Positions 2,176-24,310 of a stretch of DNA of 24,453 bases are shown here, piece after piece; the stretch's first letter is position 1; each line of letters opens with the position of its first letter. Made by a program: the position numbers and the translations under genes. The stretch lies in IMG/VR virus record IMGVR_UViG_3300024518_004754, positions 1-24,453 of that record, one strand, 5' to 3'. The notes below the pieces were generated by a model. The model saw only the letters and a list, made by a program, of their open reading frames with translations. It did not search any database and had not been told where the DNA came from. The stretch is from a virus.

Positions 2176-4770
2176 TTAGGCGATCTCCCTGAGAATGTCG
2201 GGGTTCCTCTGGATGACGTTGATCACTGCTTCCTCCCCCGCACTGGTATTCAAAGCCTGGGGGACAGCATCGGGATCATCCACATTCACCACTTGAAGAT
2301 TGATAGGTGGCTGTGACCGCGCACCAAGCATGTCGTTAGGGATTACCGTTCCGCGCGAGTCGGGTACGAACATCTCGGGGCCGCGCTCGCCAACGGGGTA
2401 GGCGGTACCCGGATTCACGGGACCACCCTGAGCCTTCCCAGCGCCGAAGCTCAAGAAGCTACCTCCTGGTATGCCTCCTGGCATACCCACAGCTGCCTGA
2501 ATCGCTTTGAGGACCAACATCTTGATGATGACCTTTGTAATAGAGGAGATCAAAGCGCGAGCGAACACCTTACCGGACACCTTGCCGCCAGTGGCCCATT
2601 CGGTAAGAGCATCAACACTGGTGTTCAATGCTCCATTCAGCCCCTCACTAATGTTCGACTCAACGGTCCCAAGGTCTTTGATGAAGCCCTTGAAGCCCTC
2701 CCGGGTACCCCTGACCGCTTGCTGGAATGCAGTCATGCCTTCTGGGTCAATATCAGAAAGACCATCAGCAAAAGCTTCATTGACTTCCCGCTGCGACGCA
2801 GCGTACTCAAGGTTTGTGATAACTCCCTGTTCTAGGGCAGTTTGTAGGAGCTGAGTTCTTTCCACGAACTGTAGGGTCAGCTCAAGAGCTGGATCGAATT
2901 CGCTCATCAGAGAGAGAACTGAATCGCGGACACTGTCAATCTTGCTAGAGTCCAGCGATGTACTGTTTATAACCCCCATGGCCTTTGAGAACTCTTCGGT
3001 AACAAGCCTTATCGTTGTGGCATACTGCTCGTCCGTTACGACAGCTGCCTTTATAGCTGTATCCATAACCATTACGCGCTCTGCAAACTCACGGGTCACT
3101 TCAATAGCGGGCTCGAACTCCTCGATAACATCCAGTGTGGCTTTCTGGAGCCTCTTGAAGCCCTTCTCATCGAGTCCAATGTCAACAACGCCTATCGGCT
3201 TGTCAGGCTTAAATCCCTCCGCTGCGGCAGCCTTCGCGGCGGCCTCTGCTGCGGCGGCCTCCTCCTTTAACGCCACTGCAGTACGCCTTGACGCCTCAGT
3301 CAGTAGATCTGAATTCGCTGCGGCATTCTCCAGAAACTTGAAATTATCTACACTGAGTTCTTGCTTGACAATGAGGCTAACCTCGTCACCAAAACCAGAA
3401 AAGGCACTTGTGAATCCCCCTCTGAAAGATTCTGCTACTAGCCTACTCACCTCATCGGTATCCCCGAGAAGTCCAGCCGCTATGAGGAGTGGTATGTTTC
3501 CGAAGAGGTCACCAAGGTTATAGTTCAACCGGGTGAAACCCTCCGCAGTTCTTTTCAGAAACAGCCAAACGACCTGGGAGGATATGTTGAACCCATTAAC
3601 GAGATCATTGAATACCCGTTTGATGCCGGGGATTTCAAAATTTTCCAAACCAGTCATCTCAGATATGAACGCCTCAATACCAGGAATCATCTTGTCAATA
3701 ATGACACTCGCCAATTCCTTCAAACGAAAAGACTGCCCCCCGATAGATACTACCTCATTACGGAAAGCGACAGCGAGACCAACGACGGTAACAAGAGCAG
3801 TCGCGATAGCAATGAATGGGTTCGTAACTGCGAGCATGATGAGTTTTGTGTTCAAAGAAGCGATAGCAGCTGCTATGCTCAACACCACAGATGCTGTCTT
3901 GACCGCAGCAATGCCCACTAGAACAATAAGCACCTTTTCAAGTAGAGGTACCCACTTTTCTGTATTGGTAGACGCTGCCAAGATGGACTTCCCAATAGCG
4001 ATAATACCCTTTGCAACCTTACTACTGGTACCTGTTATCCTATCGAGTTCGCCAATGAAGACAGTAACTGATGTCTTCAATACCTGGAAAGACTGTCCTA
4101 GAGTGGGGAGTACCTTTTTGAACTCAGCATCAATAGTGGCAGCTTGCGCCTTGAATGATTGAATGACAACATCCCGGGTCAGCTTGCCCTGGTTCGCAAG
4201 GCCACGCAATGCGCCCATCTGCACCCCAAGGGAGTCAGATATAGCCTGAGCGATACGGGGTGTCTGCTCGATCACGGAGTTGAACTCCTGACCGGACAGC
4301 CGATTAGCTGCGATGCCCTGCGCCAACTGACGCAGGGCCCCCTCGGCCTCCTGTGCGGTCGCGCCGGACACAGCAATGGCCTTCGTCAAGGTCCCAGTGA
4401 TCTTGGTCAAGTCTTGGGTGGTGAGCCCTGCAGCGTCTTGGGCAATTGATAGGCGCTGGAATACCGTAGCGACAGCATCGAGGGGAGCACGAGTCTCGAT
4501 GGCGGTCGCAACGATACCATCCAACCGATCCTCTGCATCCGCGGCGCTAGTAGCAAAGACGCGGGTACGGCTCTGTAAAAGAGTGAAGGTATCAGCGGCA
4601 GTCGCCAACTGACGCACAAGGGCGCCAGTGACTAGGGCACCCATGGTCCTGTTCATACCCCTGAGAGCTGAATCTGCCTGACCCGCATTGCCAGCGATAT
4701 CCCGGAGTTGCTTTTGGACTGATCGCGCTCCGCGCTGGCGTATGAGGACGGTAAGAGTTTCTGTCGCCAC
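2176..4770 (-). CDS. Tail tape measure protein (864 aa)
   Basis: The protein sets tail length and is threaded through the tail tube. The N-terminal part (about residues 1-245) matches the tape-measure N-terminal domain type, with LQSRTRVFATSAADAEDRL, an LSGQEFNSVIEQTPRIAQAI segment and GQSFQVLKTSVTVFIGELDR. Residues about 277-337 are strongly hydrophobic (IVLVGIAAVKTASVVLSIAA and TNPFIAIATALVTVVGLAVA), as expected for the membrane-active segment. An Ala/Glu/Lys-rich helical stretch lies near the middle. The C-terminus carries the familiar GERGPEMFVPDSRGTVIPN motif. It starts at GTG 4770, whose G is shared with the upstream TAG, with GGAG 8 bases before. At about 1.5 Angstrom per residue the length predicts a tail near 130 nm. 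Confidence 0.95.
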   Translation of the reverse strand: MATETLTVLIRQRGARSVQKQLRDIAGNAGQADSALRGMNRTMGALVTGALVRQLATAADTFTLLQSRTRVFATSAADAEDRLDGIVATAIETRAPLDAVATVFQRLSIAQDAAGLTTQDLTKITGTLTKAIAVSGATAQEAEGALRQLAQGIAANRLSGQEFNSVIEQTPRIAQAISDSLGVQMGALRGLANQGKLTRDVVIQSFKAQAATIDAEFKKVLPTLGQSFQVLKTSVTVFIGELDRITGTSSKVAKGIIAIGKSILAASTNTEKWVPLLEKVLIVLVGIAAVKTASVVLSIAAAIASLNTKLIMLAVTNPFIAIATALVTVVGLAVAFRNEVVSIGGQSFRLKELASVIIDKMIPGIEAFISEMTGLENFEIPGIKRVFNDLVNGFNISSQVVWLFLKRTAEGFTRLNYNLGDLFGNIPLLIAAGLLGDTDEVSRLVAESFRGGFTSAFSGFGDEVSLIVKQELSVDNFKFLENAAANSDLLTEASRRTAVALKEEAAAAEAAAKAAAAEGFKPDKPIGVVDIGLDEKGFKRLQKATLDVIEEFEPAIEVTREFAERVMVMDTAIKAAVVTDEQYATTIRLVTEEFSKAMGVINSTSLDSSKIDSVRDSVLSLMSEFDPALELTLQFVERTQLLQTALEQGVITNLEYAASQREVNEAFADGLSDIDPEGMTAFQQAVRGTREGFKGFIKDLGTVESNISEGLNGALNTSVDALTEWATGGKVSGKVFARALISSITKVIIKMLVLKAIQAAVGMPGGIPGGSFLSFGAGKAQGGPVNPGTAYPVGERGPEMFVPDSRGTVIPNDMLGARSQPPINLQVVNVDDPDAVPQALNTSAGEEAVINVIQRNPDILREIA

Positions 4771-5228
4771 TATGATCGCTCCACAGTGAAGCCTGGTAGG
4801 CTCTTGCCACTACTGCTGAGTACCCTAATCCTAGTCCGCGCCAGGTTCAGACCAACAGTTATCGCGGCACGAAAAAAGCCAGCCGGAGCCTGAAGACTCC
4901 AGCCATTGTTGAGCCTACCGAGGTAAGGGACTTTCTTCCCGCCATTCGAAATGACTACGTTCTCTCCCTCTCGCGTCACCCGCCCTTTGAGAGCGCGGAT
5001 TGCTTCTTCAACGGTGGCTGCGGAGGATCGGGGAGTCCGAACCTTTCGGCTCGGACTCCCACGCCGCACAAGCCAATTGGATCGTGCGAGTCCGGTATCG
5101 ACAGGAGTGCCGCTAACGAGCGCCCCGACCACGGCAACAGCAATGCTGTCGACGCCTCTACCAGCTAGTTCCGGAAGGATTTTGGCGCGTCTGCGAATCT
5201 TTGCCTGGAACGACTTGATTGTTGCCAC
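4770..5228 (-). CDS. HK97 gp10-like neck/tail-completion protein
   Basis: This 152-residue basic protein carries GTPVDTGLARSNW (about residues 59-71), the hallmark of the HK97 gp10 / minor-tail-Z-like family, whose members have a P-x-D-T-G-x-L/A-R-x-S/N-W signature and act at the head-tail or tail-completion interface. The later segment VPYLGRLNNGWSLQAPAGFF resembles that family's C-terminal part. The start is GTG 5228, chosen because a very strong AAGGAGGT lies 11 bases upstream. The gene overlaps the 3' end of the chaperone extension by 71 bases and abuts the tape measure. It lies after the tail chaperones, whereas relatives usually lie between the connectors and the tail tube. Confidence 0.75.
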   Translation of the reverse strand: MATIKSFQAKIRRRAKILPELAGRGVDSIAVAVVGALVSGTPVDTGLARSNWLVRRGSPSRKVRTPRSSAATVEEAIRALKGRVTREGENVVISNGGKKVPYLGRLNNGWSLQAPAGFFRAAITVGLNLARTRIRVLSSSGKSLPGFTVERS

Positions 5229-5544
5229 GTCTACGCCCTACCTCCTTGCCACAATACTCCAAGAACGCTTTGTCCATGGAATCAATGAAGCATATCAAGT
5301 CTTCGTACAGTATCTCCTCATCTGCTATGCCAAGACGGCATGCGTACAGGTCAACAGCCGTCCAAGGGATGGGACCGGGAACGCCTGGTGCTATAACGCC
5401 TCTACATGTCGAGAGGCGCCAAAAGTGCCTAACGTATTCAGTCAGGTGATCTGGTACATCTGGAGGGATGCAGGACTCCGGGATAGGGTGCCCCAGCTCT
5501 ATTGCTGCACTAGCGACCGTACTCGCCTGGACGCCGAAACCCAT
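5158..5544 (-). CDS. Tail assembly chaperone, C-terminal (gpT-like) part made by -1 frameshift
   Basis: The open frame encodes MGFGVQASTVASAAIELGHP and a later PWTAVDLYACRLGIADEEIL segment ending in DSMDKAFLEYCGKEV. That Pro/Tyr/Ala and Met-Asp pattern resembles T-domains of lambda gpGT-type tail chaperones, which recruit the tape measure and tail tube. There is no ribosome site before the ATG at 5544. The frame is open further upstream (RLGDLVAWTMGFG) and lies in the -1 frame of the preceding chaperone at its stop codon. I infer it is translated mainly as a fusion of about 273 residues through a slip at the AAAA tract 5571-5574. Independent initiation at 5544 is the less likely alternative. 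Confidence 0.7.
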   Translation of the reverse strand: MGFGVQASTVASAAIELGHPIPESCIPPDVPDHLTEYVRHFWRLSTCRGVIAPGVPGPIPWTAVDLYACRLGIADEEILYEDLICFIDSMDKAFLEYCGKEVGRRRGNNQVVPGKDSQTRQNPSGTSW

Positions 5545-5547
5545 CGT

Positions 5548-5576
5548 CCAGGCGACCAGATCGCCTAGCCTTTTGC
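5548..5576 (-). promoter_or_regulatory. Probable -1 ribosomal frameshift site with downstream stem-loop
   Basis: Zero-frame codons are GCA AAA GGC TAG. Lysine tRNA on AAA can re-pair one base back with AAA, giving AGG CTA GGC and entering the downstream chaperone frame. Two bases after the GG lies an 8-bp stem (CTAGGCGA / TCGCCTGG, one G-U pair, loop TCTGG) at 5548-5568, correctly placed to stall the ribosome. The heptamer is not canonical (T GCA AAA or A AAA GGC), so efficiency is uncertain. Confidence 0.6.
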
Positions 5577-5978
5577 ATCGGCCTCCCGGCTCACCTCCAA
5601 GAAATGAGACGCAGTGTTGGCCTGGGTGATGAGGTACTCCGCCAAATCAGGGAGATCCTTCAGGAGCTTCAGGCAGTTCTCCGGGGTGTACTCGATCAGC
5701 TCGCCGTCCTTGCCGATGACATTCTCCCAGGCCAGTACGATGTGCTTTGCCATCACCTCGATGGTCCTGTCCTCGGAGATCCGATCCTTCGCCTGGCCAT
5801 CGGGCATCTGGGCGAAGGGCCGCATCGCTGCCTTGAGCGCGGTGGTGAACTTCTTGTTCCCCCCTCCGGCTCGCGCGAGAATGAAGGTGGACTTCTTGCC
5901 TTCGTCGTCGATCAGCTCCAGAGCGAAACCCTGGGTTTCGAGATCCTCATTGGCTTTGAACTGACTGTAGATGGACAT
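5565..5978 (-). CDS. Tail assembly chaperone (gpG-like)
   Basis: The 137-residue protein starts MSIYSQFKANEDLETQGFAL and has the look of tail assembly chaperones: a small beta-rich N-terminus (LELIDDEGKKSTFILARAGG) followed by helices (ALKAAMRPFAQ and PENCLKLLKDLPDLAEYLIT). The family keeps the tape measure soluble and starts tube polymerisation. I chose ATG 5978, with AAAGGT upstream. The longer frame to GTG 6017 would add 13 residues encoded partly inside a strong hairpin and has no ribosome site. The gene lies between the tail tube and the tape measure, as in most siphoviruses, and ends at the frameshift site. Confidence 0.8.
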   Translation of the reverse strand: MSIYSQFKANEDLETQGFALELIDDEGKKSTFILARAGGGNKKFTTALKAAMRPFAQMPDGQAKDRISEDRTIEVMAKHIVLAWENVIGKDGELIEYTPENCLKLLKDLPDLAEYLITQANTASHFLEVSREADAKG

Positions 5979-6014
5979 TCTGGGGGTACCTTTCTCTTTC
6001 GATGGGGGTTTCAT

Positions 6015-6043
6015 CACGGGGCCGGCAAACCGCCGGCCCCGTG
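6015..6043 (-). terminator. Very stable 12-bp hairpin between 48-aa gene and tail chaperone
   Basis: A perfect inverted repeat (CACGGGGCCGGC, loop of 5, GCCGGCCCCGTG) lies 4 bases after the stop of the 48-residue gene. No T-run follows it on the minus strand, so it is not a textbook intrinsic terminator. It could partly terminate, block 3' exonucleases after the highly expressed tail tube message, or act as a processing signal. Confidence 0.7.
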
Positions 6044-6251: not shown

Positions 6252-7727
6252 CTACACAGGTACGTGATGGAAACGCATGAGCTTCAGCGTGTACCCCAGA
6301 GTCTCATCGAGGATGCCCTGGTACTGAAGCGGGATTGTGACGTCATCATTCTTGCCGGGCACCTCGGGAGAGCCCTCAGAGAACTTCAACCGCGGGACAT
6401 CCCACAGCTGAGCCCGGCCGATCGCGTCGCGGAATCGGATGTCGAAGGACGACTCAGCATTGTTGACGACGTCAACAGCCAGCGACTTGTCATCGAAGTA
6501 CGTCTGTAGAGACCCGGTCACGCCGAACTCCCCAGAGCCAACGTCCGCAGCACCCAGCACGCCAACAGCGGGCTTCTCGCGCAAGTTGTTCGCGATCGAG
6601 ATTGACGCCTCTGTCACGAAGTTGAGACCTGAGATCACTACTCCGTTACGCGCGATACGGCCGACATTCGAGCTGGAGTTGTAGACCTGGAACCGCGGCG
6701 CGGATATGGTAACGGCGCCCGCGAAACGGCCGGTGCCATCACACCCGGGACCCTGATCGACCGAGTCCGAGTAGAACTGAGTCGATCCAAGGAATGTGGC
6801 GCCCGAGGTGACAATCGCCTGCGGCTGCGCAGTGAACGTGAAGCCATCTGTAATCATGCCGAGGAGATAACTGAAGGTCACCGGATTGTGATCGTTGTAG
6901 GTCATCTCCAGAGCGTACGAACGCTTCGTGGTGCCATTCTTGATGCGCTCGCCCAGGAAGAGCTGAACAGTATCCCCGGAACCGCTGTCTGCCGCCCAAC
7001 CCGTCGGCACGCGATCGACCGTCAGGATATTGGCAGCGACCGAGACGATACGGACATAGTCATTGTCCTCAGTCGTGGTAGAGAAGCCCTGGATCAACAG
7101 CCAGTCCCCCGCTTCCAAGCCGAGTGTAGTGAAGTCGAGGATTGTAGAGGTGAGAGTATCCGGACTCAAGGTAGCGACAATATCGCTCGTAGCGGCCTGT
7201 ACACCCACGTAGCTGAGCTTCGCGAACTCACTGGGGGTCTCTACTACCATGCCTGCGCCGACCACGGGAACGTCCGTGTTGGTCGGGCCGGCGTCGACAA
7301 CCTTCAGCCCATTGTTCGCAGCGTTCGTGAAGCCCTCTGCGAATACGAGGTCTCCCGCAGAGACTGCAGAGCCCAGATCCGCGACTGTGTAACTGTCGGC
7401 GTCTACCGCGGTGATCTGATCAACGGTGAGCCGATTGTGCCACTTGAGACGGGCCTGCCACTGACTGAAGAAGGCACCTTCGAGGAAGGTATCGTAGATC
7501 CCGAAGGCCAACTCCGAGTTGGAGTCGCCACCGGCGGACCCCCCAACGAGAGGGAGATCCGAGATCTGGCGATCATCCCGAAGCAGCTCTGACACAACGG
7601 TGGCAGGCGTGAAAGCAAGGTTGGGCGCGGAGGCGATGGGGATCGTCTCAAAGTCGGGAGTGGCCGGGATGACTCCGTAAGCCGACTCCTCGACCGCCCG
7701 AAGGGACACTCTATTCGTATCTGACAT
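6252..7727 (-). CDS. Tail tube (major tail) protein with inserted accessory domain
   Basis: The core fits the phage tail tube family: N-terminal VSLRAVEESAYGVIPATPDF, then IPIASAPNLAF and SELAFGIYDTFLEGAFFSQW, and C-terminal parts RSYALEMTYNDH, SYLLGMITDGFTF and DEVTIPLQYQ-like strands. It is 491 residues, against roughly 300 for plain members. The excess is an insertion at about residues 100-262 made of two similar small beta modules (GDLVFAEGFTNAANNGLKVV and GDWLLIQGFSTTTEDNDYVR). In mature phage this protein forms stacked rings around the tape measure, with the insertion probably on the outside. The same segment recurs in the adaptor gene at 8559. It precedes the 48-aa gene and follows the tail terminator. 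Confidence 0.88.
   Translation of the reverse strand: MSDTNRVSLRAVEESAYGVIPATPDFETIPIASAPNLAFTPATVVSELLRDDRQISDLPLVGGSAGGDSNSELAFGIYDTFLEGAFFSQWQARLKWHNRLTVDQITAVDADSYTVADLGSAVSAGDLVFAEGFTNAANNGLKVVDAGPTNTDVPVVGAGMVVETPSEFAKLSYVGVQAATSDIVATLSPDTLTSTILDFTTLGLEAGDWLLIQGFSTTTEDNDYVRIVSVAANILTVDRVPTGWAADSGSGDTVQLFLGERIKNGTTKRSYALEMTYNDHNPVTFSYLLGMITDGFTFTAQPQAIVTSGATFLGSTQFYSDSVDQGPGCDGTGRFAGAVTISAPRFQVYNSSSNVGRIARNGVVISGLNFVTEASISIANNLREKPAVGVLGAADVGSGEFGVTGSLQTYFDDKSLAVDVVNNAESSFDIRFRDAIGRAQLWDVPRLKFSEGSPEVPGKNDDVTIPLQYQGILDETLGYTLKLMRFHHVPV
6933..7526 (-). repeat. Copy A of segment shared with head-tail adaptor gene
   Basis: Tail tube residues about 68-265 align with adaptor residues about 83-276. 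They share SYTV, the 14-residue AEGFTNAANNGLKV, VVETP, LDFTTL, QGFST, GWAAD and GDT blocks. The DNA keeps long identical stretches, for example CAGCCCATTGTTCGCAGCGT on the plus strand. This copy includes flanking tube core, so it is the likelier donor. Confidence 0.9.
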
Positions 7728-7739
7728 AGCTGATCTCTC

Positions 7740-8171
7740 CTATGAGATTCGATCGTAGCTGAAGTTCGCCACTACGTTGACCTGCCAATAGGTCCCGTCG
7801 GCTGCCAGCTCATTGATATCGGCATCAGTCAATCTGACGCCGAGCGTTTCGTCGACATCCTCAAATGCTTGGGCCATCGCCTCAGCGATGTCCATAGCAC
7901 TACGAGTCCCCGACCCTTGTGGCACGAAGATCTGAACGTATACCGCTCCTCGCCGCCGATTGATGACCGAGTTTGTGCCAGGGTTCCCGACAGATTCTCG
8001 GCTACTTCCAAAATGCCTGAGTACAGTACGGCCGTACATAGCGGGGTCGCTCGGCCTATTACTGTCTTGATTATCGTAGAGCAAAGGAGTACCCGCTGGG
8101 GCGTTTGCTTCCCATGTGGCCTTTACCAGAGTGAGCAAGGCGTCTTCAGCTTCAGCTGCTGTCTCAGCCAT
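7740..8171 (-). CDS. Tail terminator-like protein (DUF4128/gpU type)
   Basis: The 143-residue protein starts MAETAAEAEDALLTLVKATW, then PAGTPLLYDNQDSNRPSDPA and RRRGAVYVQIFVPQGSGTRS, ending with WQVNVVANFSYDRIS. The order of a tPl-ydN motif, a GaVyVQiFvPqGsGtr strand-turn and a C-terminal V-V-x-F-x-Y-x-R strand is characteristic of the DUF4128 family of tail terminator/completion proteins. These cap the tail tube and dock it to the neck. It lies directly before the tail tube and after the joining protein, which is the canonical place. Its ATG overlaps the upstream TGA by one base. Confidence 0.78.
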   Translation of the reverse strand: MAETAAEAEDALLTLVKATWEANAPAGTPLLYDNQDSNRPSDPAMYGRTVLRHFGSSRESVGNPGTNSVINRRRGAVYVQIFVPQGSGTRSAMDIAEAMAQAFEDVDETLGVRLTDADINELAADGTYWQVNVVANFSYDRIS

Positions 8172-8557
8172 CAGTTCTCCACCTTGCAGATATAGAGCAC
8201 GGCCTCGGCCCCCTTCCAGACAGTACCGACCTTCTTGATCTCTAAGACCCGATCCCCATCCACAATCTGCATGGAGATAGCCGGAGCCACAGTCAACCCC
8301 GAGCCCGCGATGTACACTTGTACCCCATTCACCTCAACTGGAGAAAGTACAAGCCTAGATACAGCAGACACGCGTGCTACAAGGTCTGATGCCGTCTCAT
8401 CAATGAAGACCCCATACGCCTTGGTATCCGTGAATGCCGGATCGCCATCATCCGCCCAAGGCTTCGCAGAATCCGTCACAGAAAGAATGCGTTGCCTGAT
8501 GGAGATTGGGCGGCCATTCTTCTGTATGAGCCGCTTTGCAGTCTGCGCGATAGACAT
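8171..8557 (-). CDS. Head-tail joining (head-closure) protein
   Basis: The likely 128-residue product begins MSIAQTAKRLIQKNGRPISI, a start common among small head-tail joining proteins, followed by a beta-rich body (VYIAGSGLTVAPAISMQIVD then DRVLEIKKVGTVWKGAEAVL). ATG 8557 lies one base after the adaptor stop TAG, suggesting coupled re-initiation; the longer frame to 8599 overlaps the adaptor and has no better ribosome site. Its position between adaptor and tail terminator matches the head-closure ring of siphoviruses. The family assignment rests on position and N-terminal pattern more than on a signature motif. Confidence 0.68.
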   Translation of the reverse strand: MSIAQTAKRLIQKNGRPISIRQRILSVTDSAKPWADDGDPAFTDTKAYGVFIDETASDLVARVSAVSRLVLSPVEVNGVQVYIAGSGLTVAPAISMQIVDGDRVLEIKKVGTVWKGAEAVLYICKVEN

Positions 8558-8558
8558 A

Positions 8559-9722
8559 CTACCGAACCACACTCGAACCTGTATCCCGGGTATACCCACT
8601 ATTCCACAGGATCCGATCCGCCGCAGGGTAGGGCTGGATCAGCTTCAGCTTGCGGGTGGTGTCATACCGGACTTCCTCTTCGAGGGGACCGACCTTCTCT
8701 CGTGTCATCTTGATCGATCGAAACTGCTCATCAAGGTTGGGGTCTGGCTGGAGCTGGATTTTCTCGGTGCCATCGCTCAGGACCCGCAGTGCGTACTCCG
8801 CTGTGGCCTGCTGGACTTCAACCGGGACGACCTCCGACGCATCGACACCATTGCGGTCGTAGATGCTGCTCCGGGGCCACTGGAGGGACTGAGGCCCATT
8901 GGTGAGCAACTCACCGAAGAACATCTGGATGGTATCCCCCGCGGCGGCATCCGCTGCCCAGCCCTCTGGCCCATCCTCGATCTGGATCTCGTTGGCCGAG
9001 ATGGATACGACCTGGAAGAAGTCATTGTTGTCGGTGGCTGTCGAGAAGCCCTGTACCAACACCCAATCGCCAACTGCCAAGCTCAATGTAGTGAAATCGA
9101 GTGTGCTAGATGTGATTCGATCCGGGGATACTGCTGCCGCGATATCCCCAATACCCGCTTGGGCTCCCACGTAGCCGATCTGTGCGCCGGCCCCAGGTGT
9201 CTCGACTACAAGACCCCCTCCGACTATGGGGAGGTCCGTGCTAGTAACGCCAGCATCGATCACCTTCAGCCCATTGTTCGCAGCGTTGGTAAAGCCCTCT
9301 GCAAAGAGAAGATCACTCTGACCGAGAGTGCCCTTGTCAACTACTGTGTAGCTGTCGGTATCGACGGCAGATACCTCAGTCGCGGCACCATCATTTCGCC
9401 ACCGCAGCAAGCTCCCCCATGTCGTAAAGAACGCCTCCTCGATGAAGTCGACATAGACCGGGAACTCCGAGGAGTCTGGCAAGCTCGGGGCGGCGGCTAC
9501 ATGCTCGGGATTGGATAGTGCCCCTCGAAAAAGGAACCTCTCGTCGATGTACTGAGTCGCACGGATAAGGGCTGTTGCCTTATCGTTCTCGTCGGCTTCA
9601 CCCCATAGGGTGTTATCGCGAATACGATGATAGTCCGTTACGAAGGCGAAGTCGGTGTAGGTATTAGCATCAATTAGACCCGTACCGTCTTCAACAACGA
9701 GATCAACTTCTAGAACAGCCAT
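8559..9722 (-). CDS. Head-tail adaptor (DnaT-like) split by a tail-tube-derived domain
   Basis: The two ends form a DnaT-like adaptor: N-terminal GTGLIDANTYTDFAFVTDYH and ATALIRATQYIDERFLFRGA (residues 14-68), and C-terminal PQSLQWPRSSIYDRNGV followed by VVPVEVQQATAEYALRVLS (277-315). In the family these halves are nearly adjacent, giving proteins of about 170-190 residues. Here about 205 residues intervene. They match tail tube residues 68-265, including tube core flanks (DSSEFPVYVDFIEEAFFTTW against SNSELAFGIYDTFLEGAFFS). The frame is intact, and its start ATG 9722 has AAGGAT upstream. The adaptor normally forms a 12-mer ring under the portal. The insertion would add beta modules around it. 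No nuclease or other catalytic motif is seen. Confidence 0.8.
   Translation of the reverse strand: MAVLEVDLVVEDGTGLIDANTYTDFAFVTDYHRIRDNTLWGEADENDKATALIRATQYIDERFLFRGALSNPEHVAAAPSLPDSSEFPVYVDFIEEAFFTTWGSLLRWRNDGAATEVSAVDTDSYTVVDKGTLGQSDLLFAEGFTNAANNGLKVIDAGVTSTDLPIVGGGLVVETPGAGAQIGYVGAQAGIGDIAAAVSPDRITSSTLDFTTLSLAVGDWVLVQGFSTATDNNDFFQVVSISANEIQIEDGPEGWAADAAAGDTIQMFFGELLTNGPQSLQWPRSSIYDRNGVDASEVVPVEVQQATAEYALRVLSDGTEKIQLQPDPNLDEQFRSIKMTREKVGPLEEEVRYDTTRKLKLIQPYPAADRILWNSGYTRDTGSSVVR
8895..9476 (-). repeat. Copy B of tail-tube segment, inside the adaptor gene
   Basis: This is the adaptor counterpart of 6933-7526. Protein identity is high across the whole length and the reading frame is conserved. 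DNA such as CAGCCCATTGTTCGCAGCGT is shared exactly, implying fairly recent duplication or strong conversion. The boundaries are estimated by eye to within about 15 residues. Confidence 0.9.
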
Positions 9723-9724
9723 TG

Positions 9725-10087
9725 CTAAATCAAATCCTTCAGGAGGGTTACAGTACCAAAGAGAACCGTAGAAGTATCACCCCCCAGCTCCAGTTGCACC
9801 TCGTGATAATAATCGTCTTCCTTCATGTCAGCGGTATCCTCTGGGGTAATCGCGACATCAGCACGCCCTGTTGGCCCATCAATGAGAGTCACCCCAGAGC
9901 CCAAGGTCTTCGTTATCAGAGCACCCCCTTTCGGGATCACCGAATCAGATACCTTCTTTGAGAGGGCCCAAGTGATCTCAGTGGCCGTGGTAATATCCAA
10001 GGCCGCGCCATCTTCATCATTGATAGTGAGTTCAAGTGTTCGCGAATCCCCCGAATGGTGCGAGAAGTTCGCTTCGAGTCCAATCAT
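9725..10087 (-). CDS. Small Ig-like beta-sandwich virion protein
   Basis: This 120-residue protein has the strand pattern of small phage proteins resembling the BppU N-terminal/Ig-like fold: GDSRTLELTINDEDGAALDI, TEITWALSKKV, a GSGVTLIDGPTGRADVAITP block, then EDTADMKEDDYYHEVQLELG and a final TVLFGTVTLLKD. Homologous small proteins commonly sit in the head-tail region and are annotated only as structural. The ATG overlaps the upstream TGA by four bases (ATGA), so it is translationally coupled to the large fibre-like gene. A supporting role in attaching that fibre or decorating the neck is inferred. Confidence 0.65.
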   Translation of the reverse strand: MIGLEANFSHHSGDSRTLELTINDEDGAALDITTATEITWALSKKVSDSVIPKGGALITKTLGSGVTLIDGPTGRADVAITPEDTADMKEDDYYHEVQLELGGDTSTVLFGTVTLLKDLI

Positions 10088-12960
10088 GGGTCTTGCCTCA
10101 CTCTCCCACCTGTCAACGGAGTAGCATTGCTCCGCTGGGCGGTTTGGGCGTTTGCGGTTGACTGCTGTGCATCAAGATCATCTGAGCCAGATTGCAGAGC
10201 CTCCAAGGCCGAAGCGCTACTGCTTCGGGCAGCTTGTATGCTCGAAGTTGATTGCTGCGCCTCAAGGGCGTCTAGATTGGACTGTAGCGCTTCCAGCGAT
10301 GAGGTACTGACACGCCGAGCCACTTGAGCCTCTATGGCTGATTGCCGTCCACTGAGGGCATTTGGATTAAACTGCAAGGCTCCTAGAGCCTCGGCTACTA
10401 TCTGTCGCGCAGATAGAACATCAAAGGCTACCCGCCGGCCTGCCAATTGGCTAAAGAACTGTGCAAGCTCATTCGCCAAAGATAGAGTGAGGCTTCCTAG
10501 AACATCAACATCTCCGTAGATCGCGAGGAATCCACCCGGAAGGTTGGCTGTCTGATAGACTACTTCCAACTCCGATGGAACAACTGGCGAGGTATCTGTT
10601 ACTTGGATCGTGATCTCATCATCATCTGTTTGCTGGTAGTTTACAAAAGCTTGCGCATGCCGTACACCCGTTGATCCCGCAGCCATTGAACCGAGCACAA
10701 ACTCCAGGGAACTCGCTGAGGGGTTTGAACCTAGTAGAGTAAGAGTGTGCTCCCTATCACCCGTGACGTCATTCATATCGATAATTGAGCTACCCCGAAA
10801 AACGCTCATCTCTAAATTCTTAATAGCGTAAAGGAGCCCTTGAAAAGATGAATTCGGCATCTGTGTCAAACGAGCAGTCACCAAGCTTGAAGTAGGGCCT
10901 GGTTCCGCAAGCCAAGTAGCGTTCCAATCGTCCTGCGAAATACAATCCTGCGCAATGATCGCTTGATCCCAATCATCGATATCTACTGGGCTATTATTAA
11001 CATCCACCAGGGTTTGATCAGTACCATCATCATCCCGATCCAGCAATGCTGTGCGGCCGAGCTTCCAATTCGTTCCCCGGAACTCCCACATATCGTAATA
11101 GACAGTACAAGGCCCCACAGTACCTAATCGAATTGTCCGGAGGCCCTCAAGACCAAGAACTATGAGGACAAACCCGTGCATGACCGCAGAGAGGGGTCCG
11201 ACCTCATCAGAAGCCACCCCACAAGGAGCAGGCCACGTCCTGAATGTGGCAGGAGCGTCGACCCCCATCTGAAAGAAAAACGCGCCACCTATGTATTGAC
11301 CATTGACTATAGTGTTGACAGCCTGACCTAGGAACCGAATCTCATTAGGGCCACCGGAAACACCAAGATACTGGATGACCTGAAAAGTTACAGAGATTTG
11401 AGCAGCCTGTGCTGCTGTAGACCGATTCAAGGTAACCTGAGACGGCGAGTCTTTGGTGACCCAAACTCGGAGGTCCCTGTGATCAATCGTTGGGGGCAAT
11501 GCTCCTGTTGCAATACCCCCATCCTGCGTACATAGTAGCCGAATCCCAGTGCGCTCCATAGTGCTTGGTGCGAAATTGGGGATCGCTACCGCTAAATCTA
11601 TAGAGGAAGAGCTGCCACTAAAACTAGCACTAACTTCCCATGTCCGGAATTCAGGTCCATAAGCGACTTGCGCCAAATCTATGTAGGGGTCGACGTCGAC
11701 TACGCTGTACTGCCTCAGTAAGGTGTACAGGTTGTCTGGGTTCAGATATATGTTACCCACTACATTGACGTCGCCATCAACTTCAATGGGGATTGGCCTT
11801 ATAAAGTTGACTACCGATTGCCTAAAGTATGTGGAGTTTGTGGTAGATGCAGATCGAGTATACTCTACATCTGAAAGGTCGCGTATTGTGCTATGCCAAT
11901 GGTTCCTCGGTTGCCCTATGGCTGATGTTAGGTCTAATGCCGCTTGACTAAAGCCTCCAACGGAGCTTACGCTTGACGCACCAATCTGTACCGCATCGAA
12001 AGGCTTCGTTTCCGTCTGCCTGCCGAAGGGAAAAGACTCGCCAGGTATCGGGGTTTCCCCGCCCTCCCAGGCATTGCTATGTGATACCCTGATGTTGGGG
12101 TTTGACAGCACGACGATATGCGCGGTATCGTTAGCTCCTGGAGCTACCCCTGTGAACTTCACTCTGAGAGATGTTGTAGTCGTTCCAGGGAGAACGATGT
12201 ACCTCTGATCCCTCAGTCCCGTTTGGCTAGTCTGTGCATTGACTAGAAGGATGAAAGCGTTGTCCCAATCGCCAACATCGTTGATCAAAGCAACATTCTC
12301 GAAATTACTGTCTGAGATCAAATTAGTAACAGAAGGTACGAAAGTTACCGCCTCCTGAACCCAGTCGGACCCATTGAAATCGAGTAGAGCTGTACGGTAG
12401 TCAATGTTATAGCTCGACCCGTACCTATGCAACCATTGCCAATAAGCACCAAAAAGTAAGTTGTAGTCAGAGCGGACTGCGAAGTTTATCGGACCATCAG
12501 CAGATTGACCAAAGGGCACACTCATGCCTTCAATCACACACGCTATATTGAGCCAACCCTGCGAGGGGGTACTCACTCCCTCAGAGTTGAGATTCCAGAA
12601 CCGTGAAGCTTGGCCATTGGGCATGCTACGCACGGCACGGTGGATCACCGTGAACTCATCGGGATCCCCGGGAGCCCCTACGAAGTAGAGCAAATCCCAA
12701 AAGACCTCTACCTCCAAAGAGGGATTAGGGCGTCGCGTGATCCGTACCGTATCTGTTCCAATCAGCTCAAGATCTACCCAGAGATCATCAAGAACAACAG
12801 ATCCCGTTGTGCCCGCTTTGGGACTTATGCACGTACCCGGATAGCTCGAATTAGTCTTGACTACCGCATGATCCGGATCGAAAGTGAAAGGGAGAACCAC
12901 ATCGACCGTCGGAGTATTCACGGGGACTGTGGTCTGCCCTTGATGAACCAAGAGGGACAT
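10084..12960 (-). CDS. Large fibre-like virion protein (958 aa) with internal duplication
   Basis: No enzyme motif is visible. The protein has two diverged copies of one module, about residues 18-425 and 454-840. Paired segments include FWDLLYFVGAPGDPDEF / FQVIQYLGVSGGPNEI, TSLRVKFTGVAPG / SSLVTARLTQMPN, and module ends VDGDVNVVGNIYL / YGDVDVLGSLTL. The GDVxVxG motif is typical of phage fibre and spike linkers. The last 100 residues are three 30-residue repeats (LEALQSNLDALEAQQ type), probably helical or trimeric. It lies between the capsid genes and the neck, so a capsid fibre or neck appendage that binds host surfaces is plausible; a displaced tail fibre is the alternative. It starts at ATG 12960, 3 bases after the preceding stop. 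Confidence 0.75.
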   Translation of the reverse strand: MSLLVHQGQTTVPVNTPTVDVVLPFTFDPDHAVVKTNSSYPGTCISPKAGTTGSVVLDDLWVDLELIGTDTVRITRRPNPSLEVEVFWDLLYFVGAPGDPDEFTVIHRAVRSMPNGQASRFWNLNSEGVSTPSQGWLNIACVIEGMSVPFGQSADGPINFAVRSDYNLLFGAYWQWLHRYGSSYNIDYRTALLDFNGSDWVQEAVTFVPSVTNLISDSNFENVALINDVGDWDNAFILLVNAQTSQTGLRDQRYIVLPGTTTTSLRVKFTGVAPGANDTAHIVVLSNPNIRVSHSNAWEGGETPIPGESFPFGRQTETKPFDAVQIGASSVSSVGGFSQAALDLTSAIGQPRNHWHSTIRDLSDVEYTRSASTTNSTYFRQSVVNFIRPIPIEVDGDVNVVGNIYLNPDNLYTLLRQYSVVDVDPYIDLAQVAYGPEFRTWEVSASFSGSSSSIDLAVAIPNFAPSTMERTGIRLLCTQDGGIATGALPPTIDHRDLRVWVTKDSPSQVTLNRSTAAQAAQISVTFQVIQYLGVSGGPNEIRFLGQAVNTIVNGQYIGGAFFFQMGVDAPATFRTWPAPCGVASDEVGPLSAVMHGFVLIVLGLEGLRTIRLGTVGPCTVYYDMWEFRGTNWKLGRTALLDRDDDGTDQTLVDVNNSPVDIDDWDQAIIAQDCISQDDWNATWLAEPGPTSSLVTARLTQMPNSSFQGLLYAIKNLEMSVFRGSSIIDMNDVTGDREHTLTLLGSNPSASSLEFVLGSMAAGSTGVRHAQAFVNYQQTDDDEITIQVTDTSPVVPSELEVVYQTANLPGGFLAIYGDVDVLGSLTLSLANELAQFFSQLAGRRVAFDVLSARQIVAEALGALQFNPNALSGRQSAIEAQVARRVSTSSLEALQSNLDALEAQQSTSSIQAARSSSASALEALQSGSDDLDAQQSTANAQTAQRSNATPLTGGRVRQDP
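10117..10386 (-). repeat. Three tandem 90-bp (30-residue) repeats at fibre-like gene 3' end
   Basis: Residues 859-888, 889-918 and 919-948 align as LGALQFNPNALSGRQSAIEA, LEALQSNLDALEAQQSTSSI and LEALQSGSDDLDAQQSTANA, each followed by an Ala/Gln/Arg/Ser-rich tail. A degenerate fourth unit may precede them. Spacing is constant at 30 residues; the DNA is diverged, so the repeat is old. Confidence 0.85.
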
Positions 12961-22888: not shown

Positions 22889-23266
22889 TCAGATCAGTAT
22901 TTCTCGGGGTTCCGGGTCCGGATCTTGCTGGTGGTACTTGGGGTCATGGATGTCATGCCCCTCTCCGTCATCGTGCATCCTTCGGAGATGGCGCAATACC
23001 ATAGCAGGTGAGCAATAGAAGCGCGACTCCTTAATTGCGTTGCCCTCTTTCCAGACCCAAGAGTAGAATTCGGCTTGCTCGGCCTTGGTCATGAGGGCCT
23101 GGATGTCTTCTTTCGCGGTCCGTCTTGCGGGCAGAGCATTCGGCTGTTCACGATCGCGATGCTTGTTGCGGCCGGAGACGGACACTCGTGTGGGCAGAGC
23201 ATTCGGCTGTTCACGATCGCGATGCTTGTTGCGGCCGGAGACGGACACTCGTGTGGGTAGCAGCAT
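22889..23266 (-). CDS. Protein with two perfect 21-residue N-terminal repeats
   Basis: ATG 23266 is chosen (GAGGG 9 bases upstream) over TTG 23275. Residues just after the start are a 21-residue unit (PTRVSVSGRNKHRDREQPNA plus L) twice in tandem, very basic and identical at DNA level. The rest reads AKEDIQALMTKAEQAEFYSW, then SRFYCSPAMVLRHLRRMHDD and a His/Asp/Pro-rich end (GHDIHDPKYHQQDPDPEP). The C-terminal half is probably the original fold. The repeated basic arm could bind nucleic acid. No recognised family. Confidence 0.65.
   Translation of the reverse strand: MLLPTRVSVSGRNKHRDREQPNALPTRVSVSGRNKHRDREQPNALPARRTAKEDIQALMTKAEQAEFYSWVWKEGNAIKESRFYCSPAMVLRHLRRMHDDGEGHDIHDPKYHQQDPDPEPREILI
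23129..23257 (-). repeat. Perfect 63-bp tandem repeat, two copies, in frame
   Basis: Bases 23129-23191 and 23192-23254 are identical over 63 positions, with the first three bases of a third copy following. The unit is a multiple of three, so copy-number change adds or removes 21 residues without a frameshift. Identity without a single difference implies very recent expansion. Confidence 0.95.
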
Positions 23267-23271
23267 ATCAC

Positions 23272-23616
23272 TCAACCCTCATCGAAATCGTCCTTCTTCA
23301 GTCTACGTCCAAGCCAAGAGCGCCGCGCCGGACTCCTCGGAGCCTCTGGAACGCCGTCCTTGTCGACCTCGACAAGAGCCTCGGTCTCAGAAGCGATGAA
23401 GAGCGCCAGGGCCTGCGCCAATTCGCGGTGCGCGCTGGGGGTGAAGAGACCCGCACGGAATTTCTTCGCGATGTCATCGGCCTGCTCGCGGGACAGCCTT
23501 CCGGTGTTTCTGATCTCCTCATCTGTGAGCTGGTAGAGGTCGATTCCGCCCAAGAGGTCGCTCTCAATGATTGCCTCGATCGCGGAGGTCGTGAATCCCT
23601 CCAACAGCGTTGTCAT
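23272..23616 (-). CDS. Unrecognised 114-aa protein next to small terminase
   Basis: ATG 23616 has AGGGAT 8 bases before it. The protein is helical and acidic first (MTTLLEGFTTSAIEAIIESD, LYQLTDEEIRNTGRLSREQA), then AHRELAQALALFIASETEAL, and ends basic (RSPARRSWLGRRLKKDD). It follows the probable small terminase by 32 bases and overlaps the longer reading of the next gene. The position suggests a packaging or head accessory factor, but no domain is recognised. Confidence 0.6.
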   Translation of the reverse strand: MTTLLEGFTTSAIEAIIESDLLGGIDLYQLTDEEIRNTGRLSREQADDIAKKFRAGLFTPSAHRELAQALALFIASETEALVEVDKDGVPEAPRSPARRSWLGRRLKKDDFDEG

Positions 23617-24026: not shown

Positions 24027-24120
24027 GATGCCCACAAAGTACCAGCCGTGATCCAGTCGTGCAATGGGGTGGTAAACATCCAGGCTGAGCGGAATCGTGG
24101 GAGGCGGCGGGCCGGGGCGG

Positions 24121-24205
24121 CGCGGCGCGGCGCGGCGCGGGGCGTCGCGGGGCGTCGCGCGCGTTGCGGGGCGTCGCGCGCGTTGCGGGGCGTCGCGCGC
24201 GTTGC
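24121..24205. repeat. GC-rich tandem repeats (5-bp and 19-bp units)
   Basis: Four copies of CGCGG (24121-24140) run into a partial unit and then three exact copies of GGGGCGTCGCGCGCGTTGC (24149-24167, 24168-24186, 24187-24205). This lies about 100-200 bases upstream of the probable small terminase. Tandem sites near that gene are typical of terminase-binding (cos/pac) regions, but this is inferred. Confidence 0.9.
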
Positions 24206-24310
24206 GCTCGGGCCGTGAAAATGGGATGTGTTGCCTAAAAAGCGAGTAATTACGGGGGCTTCGAGGTTTTGCCGGTCCCGCGCGGGCCGCACTGGGACGT
24301 GACTTGTTAA

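Follow-up and report, generated by a model that had tools for sequence, protein, structure and literature searches.

A segment of the tail tube has been copied into the head-tail adaptor of the phage analysed here, where it separates two adaptor halves that stand next to each other in related phages. The window, by which we mean the whole stretch of 24,453 bases (an IMG/VR virus record that is classed as linear and is therefore probably a fragment), holds both copies on its minus strand. They are homologous, with intact frames and under joint constraint, the copying went from tube to adaptor, and the loop that received the segment holds other modules in other phages. We take the insert to be an old copy of a tube segment in a loop that tolerates it, which would be displayed as peripheral two-domain arms around the neck, and we give this reading a probability of roughly 0.65. 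On the minus strand lies a siphophage block of head and tail genes; besides terminase, portal, scaffold and major capsid protein it comprises the genes listed below, which from adaptor to tape measure are ordered as in YuA, Sonora, PaMx25 and Bordetella phage MW2:

8559-9722, minus strand: head-tail adaptor, 387 amino acids (DnaT_2 / phrog_477), interrupted by the insert, in synteny with YuA, Sonora and PaMx25
8171-8599, minus strand: head closure protein (stopper; phrog_161, 1.9e-6), between adaptor and tube; its true start may be the ATG immediately beyond the adaptor stop
7740-8171, minus strand: tail terminator (PF13554, phrog_179)
6252-7727, minus strand: tail tube, 491 amino acids (Phage_tube_2 / phrog_290), with a duplicated tube fold
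5565-6017 and 5158-5544, minus strand: two tail chaperones
4770-5228, minus strand: Neck1
2176-4770, minus strand: tape measure

The adaptor matches Pfam DnaT_2 (PF20557, 1.7e-25) and phrog_477, 'head-tail adaptor Ad1' (3.2e-33), in both cases as two separate stretches, and with both halves covered by the family match it is a DnaT-like head-tail adaptor. Between the halves lie about 200 residues without counterpart in the relatives, and the adaptors of YuA (gp63), Sonora and two of the fetched loci (L012 and L092), which share family and gene order with the window adaptor at 35-53% identity, lack the insert and have their halves adjacent, so that the original prediction of an insert splitting normally contiguous adaptor halves is borne out. 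The parts of the two proteins are as follows:

9513-9722, minus strand: adaptor N-terminal half, residues 1-70, with the DnaT_2 stretch at 7-69; nearest relatives L092, L093 and L012
9465-9512, minus strand: adaptor linker, residues 71-86, mostly without clear counterpart, outside the BLASTP match and of low pLDDT
8895-9464, minus strand: adaptor insert derived from the tube, residues 87-276
8562-8894, minus strand: adaptor C-terminal half, residues 277-387, with the phrog_477 stretch at 267-382; nearest relatives L012, L092 and L093
6930-7505, minus strand: donor-type segment in the tail tube, residues 75-266, with helix alpha1 at 79-86 and two beta modules at 95-263
9262-9287, minus strand: 26-nt exact run in the adaptor copy, shared with 7300-7325
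7300-7325, minus strand: 26-nt exact run in the tube copy, shared with 9262-9287

The fusion is seen in a single metagenomic contig, which could invite the suspicion that adaptor and tube sequences were joined during assembly. However, the nearest relatives of the N- and C-terminal adaptor halves are the identical set, which excludes a simple chimera; both borders are in frame, the gene order is normal and the copy differs widely from the tube, so that an artefact would have to involve some third, unknown tube, joined in frame at both ends, and we regard it as highly improbable. The structural model of the adaptor has a mean pLDDT of 69.9 and is weak outside the insert, within which residues 115-270 mostly reach 75-95. 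Sequence searches turned up no solved structure related to the DnaT-like adaptor, a profile comparison meant to place the loop on HK97 gp6 did not align usefully (probability 1.0 on a scale of 0-100), and Foldseek and VIA comparisons with this model, weak as it is outside the insert, had no adaptor among the PDB matches listed.

The tail tube matches PF18906 (3.8e-31), its AF2 model is confident (pLDDT 93.7) and aligns with the SH-Ab15497 tube 8xan (Z 33.1, rmsd 1.5, 302 aligned), so that both sequence and fold place it in the tube family, with the fold duplicated as in SH-Ab15497, P74-26 and T5. In the model two beta modules interrupt the tube fold between alpha1 and the next strand (at 271), whereas in 8xan alpha1 leads straight into that strand with no modules there. 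The tubes of YSD1 and chi have an extra 'domain2' at this place, between alpha1 and the next strand, which in YSD1 packs against the neighbouring subunit (PMC8718954). The window tube, as modelled, thus carries an insertion at the place used in YSD1 and chi, and the likeness is one of insertion place; the YSD1 tube fold is single and that of the window tube duplicated, and the VIA comparison aligned 6xgr with the second tube domain only. The first beta module resembles the FCCH domain of the ubiquitin E1 enzyme Uba1 (Z 8.7, rmsd 2.1, 71 aligned) at a level close to that of commonly shared arrangements, and the tubes of Mystique (8.1) and T1 (7.6) are other fold matches. Neither copy matched the Big_1, Big_2, I-set, FN3 or carbohydrate-binding Pfam families in a scan to E = 10, in which the HMMER filters discard most matches above 0.1.

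The comparison of the two proteins by BLASTP aligned adaptor residues 87-318 with tube residues 75-295 at 49% identity (E = 1e-72), and when trimmed to adaptor 87-276 and tube 75-266 the identity was 55% at the amino-acid level and 64% at the DNA level over 190 codons, through which both frames are open, without stop or frameshift. The intact frames and the adaptor end at 276 agree with what had been predicted; the adaptor start is at residue 87 and not near 83, the tube segment spans 75-266, and the identity, which had been called high, is only moderate. The long exact DNA that had also been claimed comes down to one run of 26 nt, which holds the shared 20-mer, and the remaining DNA has diverged. 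When both proteins were re-coded synonymously 2000 times, 0.05% of the re-codings reached a run of that length (P = 0.0005). A profile of the tube alpha1 flank, made from other tubes with the window tube left out, found its top position in the whole adaptor at residue 87 (score -1.1, with -10.3 for the runner-up and none of 5000 shuffles reaching it), and the C-terminal flank scored 23.2 in the adaptor against a shuffled mean of -36.8. The insert thus comprises an alpha1-like helix, the two beta modules and the beginning of the next tube strand, and the expectation that the copy had brought the flanks of the tube core with it is upheld. The adaptor copy retains 27 of 40 tube-conserved positions and the window tube 32. 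Chance similarity is ruled out by the BLASTP E-value, the re-coding test, the flank-profile scores and the tree.

In regards to the donor, we placed the adaptor copy in an IQ-TREE phylogeny of 102 segments in which it was the sole row not taken from a tube. It is the sister of its own phage's tube segment (support 100/97) and is nested within the tube clade; since it lies among tubes only, the source was a tail tube and the direction was from tube to adaptor. The path between the adaptor copy and its own tube is 0.91, and that to any other sampled segment is at least 2.08. Even so, the two copies differ at 45% of their residues with a dS of 1.4-1.6, which would leave room for an unsampled sister tube, and virion modules are widely exchanged (PMC10276861), so that the segment could instead have come by horizontal exchange from the tube of another, related phage. 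We consider this a minority possibility, given the sister position and short path of the own tube among the sampled segments and the 26-nt exact run shared with it. The intragenomic domain insertion put forward in the original prediction accordingly stands as a tube-derived insertion whose closest relative is the own tube, but its supposed recency does not: with a dS of 1.4-1.6 (dN 0.33-0.34) the synonymous sites are close to saturated, and a duplication with such a dS is not recent.

Further indications on the timing came from the relatives. In the adaptor tree nine adaptors without an insert (L012, L092, L093, L042 and others) form the sister group of the window adaptor, with an SH-aLRT of 97 for all ten together, and within a wider set of 13 adaptors the window adaptor alone has an insert. 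At the position of the two modules of the window tube, the tubes of four of these relatives (L012:2717-3907, L034:2221-3384, L042:2980-4149 and L021:4511-5647) have a shorter stretch of roughly 85-100 residues; close relatives thus differ in the inserted part of the tube. Because the sister adaptors are uninserted and the relatives' tubes are shorter at this place, the copy was most likely made within the window's own branch; an earlier gain followed by loss of the adaptor insert is possible.

The branch of the adaptor copy is about three times as long as that of the tube copy (0.69 versus 0.22), as would be expected if constraint on it were weaker, and the loop tolerates several modules; the insert could therefore be a neutral passenger, kept since it is harmless. 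However, the 190 codons remained free of stops and frameshifts over a synonymous divergence of 1.4-1.6, most conserved positions were retained and the pairwise dN/dS is about 0.21-0.25, a constraint on the pair in which both branches are taken jointly, and we find a purely neutral insert rather unlikely. The constraint shows that the copy was retained and does not show its role.

To see how the adaptor loop is occupied elsewhere, we compared 174 distinct adaptor ORFs from all fetched loci; one of the scans was seeded with inserted adaptors, and the inserted fraction in this biased sample is not a frequency. More than 40 extra residues were found in 28 of the 174, namely the window adaptor, 26 adaptors of uncultured viruses with what we call a 'type-2' module and the L071 adaptor. 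The tube-type segment is present in the window adaptor only. The type-2 module (101-126 residues) occupies the same loop as the window insert and is unrelated to it; examples are L041:915-1796, L088:2015-2905, L078:374-1219 and L105:1452-2348, which like the window adaptor have in that loop a folded module to which some tail tubes hold relatives. In these four adaptors and others no tube-core flanks were found around the module. Tail tubes with the type-2 module are those of Sonora (L004), L162 and L173, and L068 has it in another ORF. The L071 adaptor (L071:1282-2103) carries a module of yet another kind, placed elsewhere in the protein and related to sequence in its upstream neighbour gene L071:309-1313. 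By parsimony the adaptor tree contains at least six changes of insert state, two of them forced by well-supported branches, and the window insert was gained separately from the other adaptor inserts. Since 26 of the 174 adaptors carry another module there, the loop tolerates folded domains, and it is a reused insertion site.

We propose that once, long ago, a segment of a tail tube of the phage's own lineage was copied into a tolerated surface loop of the DnaT-like adaptor, after its second core helix. The segment consists of helix alpha1, the beginning of the next strand and, between them, the pair of beta modules by which the tube fold is interrupted. Siphophage adaptors form twelve-subunit rings below the portal and outside the capsid (PMC10276861, PMC11445458), and by analogy with these solved dodecamers an outward-facing loop would give twelve two-domain arms around the neck, which would project from it as the same modules project from the tube fold and would leave the channel-forming part of the adaptor unaltered. 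It is plausible, as was originally suggested, that the same beta modules decorate both the neck and the tail. The arms might serve as a peripheral accessory, either adhering weakly to the cell surface or stabilising the neck against adjacent subunits or the vertex of the capsid; by analogy, adhesion and local stabilisation are each possible. The adaptor of the roseophage vB_DshS-R4C has a peripheral Ig-like attachment domain that touches the capsid, for which local stabilisation was proposed (PMC10276861), and the window adaptor would likewise have extra beta structure at the ring periphery. However, the R4C domain is N-terminal, while the window adaptor has two tube-derived modules in an internal loop, and there is no sequence signal between the R4C adaptor and the window adaptor family (hhalign probability 0.1 on a scale of 0-100). 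The Ig-like domains of the Douge tube and capsid bind mycobacterial glycans (PMC13033339), and 936 lactococcal phages have carbohydrate-binding modules in neck and tail (PMC6669499). As in these phages and in lambda gpV, accessory beta modules are common to virion proteins, including those of the neck, but the modules of lambda gpV, Douge and the 936 phages are Ig-like or carbohydrate-binding and those of the window match no such Pfam family.

That the adaptor imitates tube subunits at the head-tail junction, aiding the docking of terminator or tube, had been offered as another role, and it draws on the tube-core flanks that were copied along with the modules, alpha1 on one side and the edge of the following strand on the other. 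The adaptor nevertheless contains only the counterpart of tube residues 75-266 and lacks the tube-forming beta-sandwich, which rejects it as a full tube mimic and makes any mimicry unlikely; moreover, stopper and terminator rings lie between adaptor and tube in known siphophages (PMC10276861). The unrelated module at the same loop in other phages favours a general insertion and display site over a special mimicry event, and we hold mimicry to be a weakly supported and distant alternative to peripheral arms. It is equally doubtful that the adaptor and tube modules interact and so build a single outer sleeve that runs uninterrupted from the neck along the tail; if they do, duplicated tube parts would have a structural role that we found described for no phage.

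The copying of a folded segment from a tail ring protein into a neck ring protein is a route to new virion surface modules, and the copied segment bears recognisable scars of the donor protein. That virion proteins share surface modules is known; what is new is that the donor belongs to the same lineage or even the same genome, together with the reuse of the adaptor loop. This loop holds folded modules in many uncultured phages, with no case found among the isolated phages searched, and is a candidate site for neck decoration. No second tube-type fusion was found in scans of viral contigs and bacterial genomes or by tblastn of annotated phages, from which near-identical records may be absent; the fusion is known from a single contig, and its lone occurrence is not proof of uniqueness. 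No match in the annotated phage records covered at least 80% of an inserted adaptor query, and the best of them matched both halves and skipped the insert. Three loci suggested as fusions by their match range (L234, L240 and L242) proved to have ordinary tubes and separate adaptors without a large insert.

Some further features of the contig can be mentioned. The two tail chaperone ORFs (5158-6017, minus strand) are laid out like the usual frameshift pair, and CAAAAGG, shortly ahead of the stop of the first, is a candidate slippery site. Between the capsid and adaptor genes lies an ORF of 958 residues (10084-12960) that matches PHROGs only weakly and has repeated LEALQSNLDALEAQQS-like units at its C-terminal end. 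At 23129-23266 there is a tandem repeat with a unit of 63 bases (2.2 copies, 97%), in frame within ORF 22889-23275, and GC-rich short tandem repeats occur at 24104-24206, close to the contig end.
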